The translations under genes and the position numbers were made by a program. From Caldicellulosiruptor kronotskyensis 2002 (GTDB lineage: Bacteria > Bacillota > Thermoanaerobacteria > Caldicellulosiruptorales > Caldicellulosiruptoraceae), in contig NC_014720.1 in the NCBI RefSeq assembly GCF_000166775.1, positions 583,501 through 647,500 of the forward strand: DNA of 64,000 nt, read 5' to 3'. Position 1 is the stretch's first letter. The number at the start of each line of letters is the position of its first letter. The notes beneath the pieces were generated by a model, which was given only the letters and a program-made list of their open reading frames with translations, was not told where the DNA came from and did no database searches. This document shows positions 9,031 to 13,307 of this stretch, piece after piece.

Positions 9031-9525
9031 ATGCCCGACTTAATTGTAAGTAATAATACAAATATATCAAATTCAACTCAAGGTTCAGCTACATCATTGG
9101 GTAAAAATGTTCTTGGCAAACAGGAGTTTTTAAATCTTTTAGTCACACAACTAAGGTATCAGGACCCATTAAAACCAATGGAAGACAAAGAATTTGTTGC
9201 TCAGCTTGCTCAGTTTTCTGCGCTTGAACAGATGCAAAACTTGAATGAGTCATTTGAATTTTTGAAAGCTCAGAGCATGATAGGAAGATATGTTGTAGCG
9301 ACAAATCCGGCAGACACATCAAAGACCATAGAGGGGAGAATTGACAGTATAAGAGTAGATGGTAGCAAGGTATATTTAAAAGTAAACGGCACCGAAGTAC
9401 TTTCTGATAATGTAAAAGAGGTTTATCATTCTTATTCTGAGGAGGTTATATCAAGTCTTCTAAGTAAAGTACCTTCAAAGGAAGACCTGCTTGAGATACT
9501 AAGCTCCTTGCAAAAGGGAGAATGA
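9031..9525 (+). CDS. flgD: Flagellar hook assembly scaffold FlgD
   Basis: FlgD caps the growing hook and is required to polymerise FlgE. The first half carries the family signature FLNLLVTQLRYQDPLKPMED and FVAQLAQFSALEQM (about residues 31-70). At 164 residues it is a short FlgD, like that of Bacillus, without the larger C-terminal FnIII region of enterics. Its stop codon overlaps a potential ATG of the next gene. Confidence 0.95.
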   Translation: MPDLIVSNNTNISNSTQGSATSLGKNVLGKQEFLNLLVTQLRYQDPLKPMEDKEFVAQLAQFSALEQMQNLNESFEFLKAQSMIGRYVVATNPADTSKTIEGRIDSIRVDGSKVYLKVNGTEVLSDNVKEVYHSYSEEVISSLLSKVPSKEDLLEILSSLQKGE

Positions 9526-9530
9526 GATGG

Positions 9531-9893
9531 ATGACAGTAAATAATAATATAAAAGGTATTACTGGTGGGAAACTTGAAGGTTTTGTTTCAACTAATCCAA
9601 AGAAAGCAACAGAAAGTTTTGCAAGTATTTTTTCTCAAACGCTTAAAATCTCAAAACATGCAAGCGAAAGGTTAAAATTTCAGAATATAAATTTGGATGA
9701 GGTTACCTTAAGCAAGCTTGAAGAGGCTGTGAAGAAGGCTGAGCAAAAAGGTCTTAAAAATGATGTACTGGTTTTAGATGGGAACAAGGCGTATATAGTA
9801 AATATTAAAAACAAGGTTGTTGTGACTGTAAAAGATGTGTCAGGCTTGAAAGATAACATATTCACAAATATTGATGGTGTGCTGATGATTTAA
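9531..9893 (+). CDS. Flagellar operon protein of TIGR02530 type
   Basis: This small soluble protein (about 120 residues) contains ISKHASERLKFQNINL and a segment ending VLVLDGNKAYIVNIKNKVVVT, the pattern of the uncharacterised TIGR02530 flagellar operon family found between flgD and flgE in many Firmicutes. Its function is unknown. An ATG at 9522 overlaps the flgD stop, but it lies only 1 nt from the AAGGGAG SD. The ATG at 9531 has 10 nt spacing and is preferred. Confidence 0.8.
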   Translation: MTVNNNIKGITGGKLEGFVSTNPKKATESFASIFSQTLKISKHASERLKFQNINLDEVTLSKLEEAVKKAEQKGLKNDVLVLDGNKAYIVNIKNKVVVTVKDVSGLKDNIFTNIDGVLMI

Positions 9894-9972
9894 AATTGAC
9901 AATGGGGGATGGACCTGAAAAGTAGGAGGTCCCCCAATTAAAGGGCCTTTCTGACTGACAGAAGGAAGGCCC
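9894..9972 (+). ncRNA. Tandem RNA hairpins in the flgE leader
   Basis: Two GC-rich hairpins sit back to back in an otherwise AT-rich gap. Hairpin A pairs GGACCT (9911-9916) with AGGTCC (9927-9932), extended by GGG (9906-9908) with CCC (9933-9935) and by AATTG (9894-9898) with CAATT (9935-9939, sharing one base). Hairpin B pairs GGGCCT and TTCTG (9943-9953) with CAGAA and AGGCCC (9959-9972), leaving a 3-nt bulge. Neither is followed by a T run, so this is not an ordinary terminator. A role in mRNA processing, stability or translation of flgE is inferred. Confidence 0.5.
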
Positions 9973-10019
9973 ACAAAAAGGATGCAATTTCAGATGAAAA
10001 GGGGGATTTTATTAAAGCC

Positions 10020-11486
10020 ATGATGAGGTCAATGTTTTCATCTATCTCTGCCCTCCGCGCTCACCAGACAAGAATGGACGTTATTGGTGATAACATCGCC
10101 AATGTAAATACAGTGGGGTTTAAGTCAAGCAGAGTGACATTTGCCTCTGTATTTGCTTCTGTTTTAAAATCAGCGTCAGCACCAGATACAGCGTCAGGTC
10201 GAGGCGGGTCAAACCCTATGCAGATTGGTCTTGGTGTGTCGGTTGCCTCTGTTGATATGAACATGACAAGAGGAAGCCTTCAGAGAACAGATAATCCAAC
10301 AGACCTTGCAATTGAAGGTGATGGATTTTTTGTTGTGGGAGGGGACGGGAAAGCTCCGCGATTCACCAGAGCGGGGAATTTCAGTTTAGACAAGATGGGG
10401 AATTTAGTGACAGCAACAGGATTAAATGTTCTGGGATGGATGTATGACCCTGTAAACAATCAAATTGATACAACAAAATCGCCTTCAAAGATCAACATAC
10501 TTGCATTTCCAACTTTACCTCCAAAGGCAACAGATAAGATTAGTTTTGACGGGAACCTAAGCGCGGATACAAAAATATATTCAGGTCAAATAACAAAATT
10601 TGAAGATTTATTGAACGTGCCTGCCGATAGCAAATATTCAACAAGTTTTAAGATTTTCGATTCACAGGGCAAAGAACACACGTTACAGCTCACTTTTATA
10701 AAAACAGGCGATAACACATGGGAATGGTTTGTGGATGCTCCGAGGGTAAAGAAGAATATAGGTACTGCCCAAAATCCACAAGAAGCGTATGTATATGTTG
10801 ATGATATGATAGAGGCAAACAATGACTATGACAACTTTATTGCAAGAGGAACAATAACATTTGGACAAGCAGGAAAGGTGCTTGATGATGAAAATACACC
10901 TGATGTAGAAGGAATTGCTATAACAGGTGGAAGGTTTATTAATACACAAGACGGTACATTTACAATTAATTTCAAGAACAGTGTTGTGAATCCTGTTACA
11001 TTAAAAGTTAATAGTTCTCAATTTGATGTGAATGATGCCACAAACATTGCCTTTTTCTTGAAGAATATAACTCAATTTGGTAATATGGAAAGTTCAATAA
11101 GAGTTGCGCAGATGACAGGGTACAGTGCAGGAAGTCTTCAAGGATTTAACGTTGATGCATCAGGTAAGATAACAGGTGTATATTCAAATGGTTTGAACCA
11201 GCTAATTGGTCAGATTGCGATTGCAACATTTGCAAACCCTGCAGGACTTCAGCGAATAGGCGATAATCTTTATATAAACACAGTAAACTCAGGTGACCCT
11301 GAGATTGGTACACCTGGTTCTGGCTCAAGAGGTACAATATCTCAGGGAACGCTTGAGATGTCAAATGTGGACTTAGCAAAAGAATTTACAGACATGATAG
11401 TAACTCAGAGAGGGTATCAGGCAAACGCAAGGGTGATAACTGCATCAGATGAACTTTTGCAGGATTTGGTCAATATTAAAAGGTAA
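10020..11486 (+). CDS. flgE: Flagellar hook protein FlgE
   Basis: FlgE polymerises into the hook, the universal joint outside the cell. It has 488 residues. The N-terminus carries SMFSSISALRAHQTRMDVIG and NIANVNTVGFKSSRVTF. The C-terminus carries GTLEMSNVDLAKEFTDMI and QRGYQANARVITASDELLQD, the coiled-coil termini shared by axial proteins. The nearest SD (GGGGG at 10001-10005) lies 14 nt from the ATG, unusually far, and the leader is highly structured. Together with the hairpin after the gene, this suggests special control of the abundant hook subunit. Confidence 0.95.
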   Translation: MMRSMFSSISALRAHQTRMDVIGDNIANVNTVGFKSSRVTFASVFASVLKSASAPDTASGRGGSNPMQIGLGVSVASVDMNMTRGSLQRTDNPTDLAIEGDGFFVVGGDGKAPRFTRAGNFSLDKMGNLVTATGLNVLGWMYDPVNNQIDTTKSPSKINILAFPTLPPKATDKISFDGNLSADTKIYSGQITKFEDLLNVPADSKYSTSFKIFDSQGKEHTLQLTFIKTGDNTWEWFVDAPRVKKNIGTAQNPQEAYVYVDDMIEANNDYDNFIARGTITFGQAGKVLDDENTPDVEGIAITGGRFINTQDGTFTINFKNSVVNPVTLKVNSSQFDVNDATNIAFFLKNITQFGNMESSIRVAQMTGYSAGSLQGFNVDASGKITGVYSNGLNQLIGQIAIATFANPAGLQRIGDNLYINTVNSGDPEIGTPGSGSRGTISQGTLEMSNVDLAKEFTDMIVTQRGYQANARVITASDELLQDLVNIKR

Positions 11487-12317: not shown

Positions 12318-13307
12318 ATGGGCGATATACTGTCTCAGAGTGAAATAGATGAGCTTTTGCGTTCTCTTACATCTGGTGAACTTTCAATCGAAGAGATTCA
12401 AAAACCAAAACAAGAAAAGAATGTAAGGGTATATGATTTTAAAAGACCAAGTAAGTTTGCAAAAGACCATTTGAGGACCCTTCAAATGATATTTGAAAAC
12501 TACGCCCGGATTGTCACCACCTTTTTATCTGGGTATTTAAGGACAGTTGTTCAGATGGACGTTTTGTCGGTTGAACAACTGACATATTATGAATTCAGCA
12601 ATTCTCTTTCCAATCCAGTTGTGATGGGTATTGTAAATTTTTCGCCATTAAAAGGAAGTATTGTATTTGAGATGGCACCAGAGATTGCGTTTGCCATGAT
12701 AGATAGAGTCCTTGGAGGGTTTGGCAAAGGAATAGATAAAGTGAGAACTTTTACGGAGATCGAGCTTGCACTGATAGAAAGGCTACTTCAACAACTCATC
12801 AATTATTTCCAAGAAGCGTGGGAGAATATTGTTGATCTTAGACCACGGCTTGAAAAGATAGAAACAAATCCACAGTTTACCCAGATTGTATCACCTAATG
12901 AGACAGTAGCACTTGTTACAATTGCCATGAAAGTTGGCGAGGCAGAAGGGATGGCGAATATCTGTATTCCGCATATGGTGATAGAGCCGATAATGCCAAG
13001 GCTTTCAACAAAGTTCTGGTTTTCAACATCTGCAAAAGAGTCATCAGAGGAGACAAAAGAGTATTTACAGAAAAAAATTGAAAGAACGAGGGTTACAGTG
13101 AAAGCGGTGCTTGGCAGAACACAGATTACAGTCAGAGAATTTTTAGAGCTTCAGGTGGGTGATGTACTGAGGCTTGACAGAAGAAAGAACCAGGAGATAG
13201 AAGTTTTTGTCGGGAACAAATTAAAATTTTATGGTGTTCCAGGACGAAAAGAAGGCAGGATTGCAGTAAAGATTACACGAGTAGAAGAGGGGGAGGATTT
13301 TAGATGA
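12318..13307 (+). CDS. fliM: Flagellar motor switch protein FliM
   Basis: FliM is the C-ring switch subunit that binds phospho-CheY. It has 329 residues. The N-terminal peptide GDILSQSEIDELLRSL is the CheY-binding motif, the middle domain is CheC-like, and the C-terminal SpoA/FliN domain contains LGRTQITVREFLELQVGDVL. It overlaps fliY by 4 nt (ATGA), implying coupled synthesis of the two C-ring proteins. Confidence 0.97.
   Translation: MGDILSQSEIDELLRSLTSGELSIEEIQKPKQEKNVRVYDFKRPSKFAKDHLRTLQMIFENYARIVTTFLSGYLRTVVQMDVLSVEQLTYYEFSNSLSNPVVMGIVNFSPLKGSIVFEMAPEIAFAMIDRVLGGFGKGIDKVRTFTEIELALIERLLQQLINYFQEAWENIVDLRPRLEKIETNPQFTQIVSPNETVALVTIAMKVGEAEGMANICIPHMVIEPIMPRLSTKFWFSTSAKESSEETKEYLQKKIERTRVTVKAVLGRTQITVREFLELQVGDVLRLDRRKNQEIEVFVGNKLKFYGVPGRKEGRIAVKITRVEEGEDFR

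Follow-up and report, generated by a model that had tools for sequence, protein, structure and literature searches.

Within the window (the whole 64,000-nt stretch of Caldicellulosiruptor kronotskyensis 2002 DNA analyzed here), the gap at positions 9894-10019 separates a gene of the TIGR02530/PF12611 family from the hook protein gene flgE and contains two GC-rich hairpins. An earlier note, made from the sequence, had described two such hairpins ahead of flgE; folding, conservation, and covariation confirm them at 9904-9935 and 9943-9972. The features of the locus are as follows.

9522..9893, + strand: TIGR02530/PF12611 gene, directly upstream of flgE; proposed trans-acting partner
9904..9935, + strand: hairpin 1, from folding and the genus alignment, with the same anatomy in the 56-sequence alignment A4
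9904-9909/9930-9935, + strand: lower stem of hairpin 1 (GGGGGA/UCCCCC), extended by U9910.G9929
9911..9913, + strand: GGA bulge of hairpin 1, opposite A9927 (G9928)
9914-9916/9924-9926, + strand: apical helix of hairpin 1 (CCU/AGG)
9943..9972, + strand: hairpin 2, whose stem opens with GGGCCUUU and closes with AAGGCCC and carries compensatory changes
9953..9962, + strand: loop of hairpin 2, GACUGACAGA, in agreement with the family consensus GANYGAYNGA
9997..10006, + strand: flgE ribosome-binding site, AAAAGGGGGA
10020..11486, + strand: flgE, hook protein gene; proposed target of leader control

The 161-nt segment that includes the hairpins folds with an energy of -50.9 kcal/mol (z = -3.46), a value equaled by 2 of 200 shuffled sequences. 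A search of the gap for an intrinsic terminator or attenuator, that is, a hairpin followed by a T run, found none, in keeping with the earlier observation that the hairpins lack a T tract. The 14-nt spacing between the Shine-Dalgarno (SD) sequence and the flgE start codon, which had been read as unusual, is at the long end, yet other genes of the window (at 12318, 14925, and 7480) have similar spacing, and the argument from spacing to regulation carries no weight.

We compared the gap among 12 species of the genus and found it in the same place in all 12 genomes. Identity in the genus alignment is 90% for hairpin 1, 88% for hairpin 2, and 92% for the ribosome-binding site, compared with 49 to 52% for the linkers and 56% for flgE fourfold sites. 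Compensatory changes occur in pair 17-25 of hairpin 1 (U-A or C-G) and in hairpin 2, giving 8 double-change cells compared with 2.4 in shuffled alignments, and none of 500 shuffles reached the observed level. An alternative pairing of hairpin 1 (GGACC/GGUCC) was rejected: it shows no covariation, and in 9 of the 12 species the bases at its sixth position do not pair. As a separate observation, FlgE of G007 (L012/L013) matches in two parts about 780 nt apart within a single frame of 744 aa, and judging from its sequence this protein appears to have a large insertion or an extra domain.

A two-hairpin RNA family upstream of flgE and flgG

A covariance model built from the genus (R1) recovered one copy in a neighboring genus (G012; E = 1.2e-9), immediately 5' of flgE. 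Its other genome matches were weak, consisting mainly of the common ribosome-binding site, and were discarded; ribosome sites of the AAAAGGGGGAWTTT type also precede other genes in this genus, for example at L071/L044. Copies before flgE in further families then emerged from a pattern scan of 398 genomes, and inspection of the flgE leaders at 80 named loci revealed the same element in most of them. From 56 clostridial copies we assembled alignment A4 and built a second covariance model, R2.

In A4, hairpin 1 consists of a stem of five pairs with covariation at the inner Y-R pair (C-G in 36 copies, U-A in 10, and U-G in 7), a GGA bulge facing a purine, and an apical CC/GG helix. After a short linker, hairpin 2 has a seven-pair stem, in which every pair covaries, closed by the loop N-GANYGAYNGA-N. 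The linker between the hairpins is variable, and no enclosing stem is present. The unpaired nucleotides are conserved along with the stems, the third base of the bulge being A in 166 of 187 distinct copies. Over the 15 pairs of A4, 94.7% of cells are paired, with 208 double-change cells against 66 in shuffles (these counts refer to sequences, not to evolutionary events), and the covariation score of 0.628, compared with 0.233 for shuffles, was reached by none of 500 shuffled alignments; slid registers all scored far lower. A further 14 copies replace C-G with U-A at apical pair 12-20, a C-A mismatch occurs in none, and U-A at this pair is frequent among flgG copies. Some copies from Fermentithermobacillaceae (L117, L141, L154, L171, and L172) have odd hairpin 2 loops, such as GAAGGGCGGA in L141.

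The earlier note had held that a lack of compensatory changes among relatives would count against its proposal; such changes are abundant both within the genus and across the phylum. The two hairpins are real, conserved, and part of a much larger family of structured RNAs. That they are ordinary intergenic hairpins of no function is refuted by this covariation, and the conservation, phylum-wide spread, and fixed placement of the element likewise leave that explanation with a negligible chance of being correct.

R2 matches 255 of the 398 genomes sampled from the phylum (Firmicutes), many of them with two copies. We read the placement of 125 copies: 92 lie before flgE, 31 lie before flgG, and 2 run off the end of a contig, so that 123 of the 125 are directly upstream of flgE or flgG. 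At the named flgE loci, 72 of 80 carry the element, in each case solely in the flgE leader, while two element-negative loci (L146 and L165) retain a recognizable hairpin 1. The element begins near where the upstream gene ends and stops 21 to 82 nt (median, 29 nt) short of the start codon. In the genus of the window, a search for an element before flgG found none, and only the flgE copy was seen.

The window copy itself scores weakly with R2 (17.9 bits; E = 0.039), mostly through hairpin 2, because its hairpin 1 contains an additional G and its linker is longer. It lies directly upstream of flgE, its hairpin 2 loop fits the family consensus, and the G012 copy, from a genus of the same family, is recognized by both R1 and R2 (41.4 bits with R2). 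By its placement and synteny, its loop sequence, and this intermediate, the window copy appears to be a divergent member of the family.

A search of the window and 10 relatives with the Rfam 15 covariance models yielded no match above the gathering threshold, the best subthreshold matches being to unrelated families, and a permissive search of Rfam 15 with one element was likewise empty. The statement that the gap does not match the cyclic di-GMP (c-di-GMP) riboswitch cores is thus borne out, since no Rfam family was matched, c-di-GMP riboswitches included. A literature search covering a subset of journals found no report on TIGR02530/PF12611 or on a flgE leader RNA.

Taken together, covariation and near-constant placement before flgE or flgG uphold the cis-acting RNA proposed earlier, and the element is very probably a structured cis-regulatory leader. 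The remainder of that proposal, control of hook protein synthesis through processing, stability, or translation, is something that we infer. One way for such a leader to act would be as a small-molecule riboswitch, or another RNA switch, that sequesters the SD sequence. Its conserved unpaired nucleotides would suit a switch, and so would a bias in the SD sequence itself: at loci L097 to L176, 22 nt before flgE, the flgE SD is GGAGGUC or GGAGGUU in 40 of 61 cases and GGAGGUG in none of the 61, compared with GGAGGUG in 37 of 77 other genes at these loci, and the SD could therefore base-pair either to hairpin 1, at GACC, or to the loop, at GAY. The gain in pairing over control SD sequences is small, however (4.0 versus 3.7 bp and 4.3 versus 3.7 bp), and clear covariation between loop and SD was missing when judged by eye, so SD pairing was rejected. 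Together with the lack of an Rfam match, the variable linker, and the missing enclosing stem, these results make a switch improbable.

TIGR02530 and CsrA as candidate trans-acting factors

The element co-occurs with TIGR02530. In the six other genomes, whose flgE locus lacks the element, TIGR02530 is missing genome-wide; these six make up the full set of flgE-bearing, TIGR02530-negative genomes examined. Conversely, among 80 mostly R2-negative genomes, 15 encode TIGR02530, and 13 of these 15 hold an element downstream of it, some of them degenerate. Counting against a tie between the protein and the leader, family f99 (G226 and G250; L343 and L344) has TIGR02530 followed by different hairpins before a flgE-like gene; these are possibly a degenerate or replaced element. 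The co-occurrence could also reflect shared ancestry of one type of flgE operon rather than a functional tie. In G379, a second flgE-like gene after flgD (L285) has its own copy of the element with no TIGR02530 gene between the two, and this genome also contains a TIGR02530-flgE pair of the usual kind, whose copy has GGC (L329). Copies before flgG are distant from the TIGR02530 gene, and any action of the protein on flgG would therefore need to be in trans.

TIGR02530 was represented by two AlphaFold models, with confident prediction over residues 41 to 123 or so, and both align best with RelE/ParE/HigB toxins, which account for nearly all of the best 20 matches (Z of 5 to 6.2 over 67 to 75 residues at 3.0 to 3.5 Å; best, Z of 6.2 over 71 residues at 3.0 Å). 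These scores are moderate, and with Z < 8 and Foldseek E > 0.1 they leave room for no more than a common arrangement. Three of five TIGR02530 members also have weak Pfam matches to DUF4258, which is classed as a RelE/ParE (BECR) family (PMC11980606). Comparison of the TIGR02530 sequence with those of solved structures gave nothing meaningful. A RelE/ParE-like fold is thus predicted for TIGR02530 with moderate scores, and a shared fold alone demonstrates no function. In the TIGR02530 protein encoded at 9522-9893, residues S44, H46, A47, and R50 are invariant family positions, and the C-terminal FTNIDGA motif (PF12611) is highly conserved. TIGR02530 is not FlgV, a different, two-transmembrane protein encoded after flhG (PMC11607428).

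The GGA bulge brings CsrA to mind as a reader, and the hag leader of Bacillus subtilis is a precedent for CsrA bridging a leader GGA and the SD sequence. Here, CsrA would link hairpin 1, through its GGA, to the SD, through its GGAGG. CsrA is present in 67 of 70, 57 of 76, and 73 of 80 genomes tested, nearly all of them element bearing, and in the seven genomes of family f48 (L307 to L313), which have no CsrA match, GGU replaces the GGA of hairpin 1. In Campylobacter, moreover, CsrA copurifies with flgE mRNA (68-fold) and flgG2 mRNA (44-fold), an association that favors this explanation (PMC4894983). The striking pattern in f48 nevertheless failed in the wider set of genomes: at least nine CsrA-positive genomes have GGC or GGU bulges (G399, G101, G360, G119, G258, G234, G210, G158, and G245), so that GGA is not kept wherever CsrA is present. 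The element also persists where CsrA is absent, the seven f48 genomes having an intact hairpin 2, and hairpin 2 has no obligatory GGA. Because of these non-GGA bulges and the otherwise intact f48 copies, CsrA is neither required for the element nor an explanation of its bulge. We regard a CsrA-binding leader as improbable, to the same degree as a switch, and TIGR02530 fits better as the trans-acting factor.

Proposed post-transcriptional control of rod and hook synthesis

Our favored explanation, to which we give an even chance, is that TIGR02530 binds the leader of flgE and flgG and controls both genes post-transcriptionally. The leader would mark the mRNAs of the axial structure, flgE (hook) and, in many relatives, flgG (distal rod), for control separate from that of the other genes in their operons. 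The two hairpins would form a protein recognition site, bound by the small, putatively RelE/ParE-fold TIGR02530 protein at the neighboring flgE and in trans at flgG. Binding, or cleavage, near the ribosome-binding site could then limit or time the synthesis of FlgG and FlgE while the rod and hook are assembled, in a manner comparable to CsrA-FliW control of flagellin but with other parts. That TIGR02530 is the partner of the leader we judge nearly as likely as not to be so, the fold and the co-occurrence being what points to it. In its most specific form, that of a domesticated RelE/ParE-fold protein, RNA binding or RNA cleaving, which recognizes an unnamed two-hairpin flgG/flgE leader across the Firmicutes as a dedicated checkpoint on rod and hook assembly, the proposal is possible but falls short of an even chance.

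As the gap contains no terminator, control of translation or mRNA stability is likelier than attenuation. That the net effect is repression of translation, rather than stabilization, we consider less likely than not, and the 21- to 82-nt spread in distance to the start codon disfavors simple steric blocking. Alternatively, an endonuclease could cut upstream, with the hairpins shielding the flgE (and flgG) mRNA at its new 5' end and raising its dose over that of low-copy neighbors. FlgG and FlgE are high-copy axial proteins made before flagellin, as such a role would favor, and the mid-operon position, variable distance to the start codon, and missing terminator all fit. A 5' clamp, however, needs only stable stems; it calls for neither the invariant GA..GA..GA loop nor the conservation of the GGA bulge, and it leaves the co-occurrence with a single gene, TIGR02530, unexplained. 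We therefore consider a processing or stability element unlikely, and binding by TIGR02530 remains our preferred reading.

An RNA structure that Rfam lacks, yet that almost two thirds of the genomes sampled from a phylum contain, would considerably enlarge the known set of bacterial regulatory RNAs. The distal rod and hook are built from axial proteins assembled in strict order before the filament. With distal rod and hook as its targets, the element therefore suggests a testable explanation of how Firmicutes set the timing and dose of the rod and hook subunits encoded inside long flagellar operons; it probably gives the cell control over when hook and rod protein is produced, or in what amount. 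For the conserved flagellar protein TIGR02530, it also supplies an initial hypothesis of function.

Among known systems, c-di-GMP riboswitches before flagellar operons are likewise structured RNAs linked to motility genes, whereas the flgE leader lies mid-operon, has neither the aptamer core nor a terminator, and matches no Rfam model. CsrA-FliW control of flagellin (hag/flaA) is similarly post-transcriptional and works through the leader of an exported flagellar protein, and the CsrA-bound set in Campylobacter shares flgE and flgG2 with the targets here (PMC4894983). The present element differs in having no obligatory ANGGA loops, in occurring without CsrA, in its covarying two-hairpin architecture, and in preceding flgE and flgG rather than flagellin genes. 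TIGR02530 resembles the RelE/ParE (BECR-fold) families, DUF4258 included, in its predicted fold and weak DUF4258 sequence matches; unlike the toxins, it is a flagellar equivalog family encoded in a flagellar operon rather than in a toxin-antitoxin pair. Protein-binding leaders, autogenous or trans acting, such as those of ribosomal protein genes, share with the element their short hairpins, conserved unpaired nucleotides, position just 5' of the ribosome-binding site, and adjacent gene for a candidate binding protein, here the putative partner TIGR02530; they differ in partner, fold, and target genes, and binding in the present case is a prediction.
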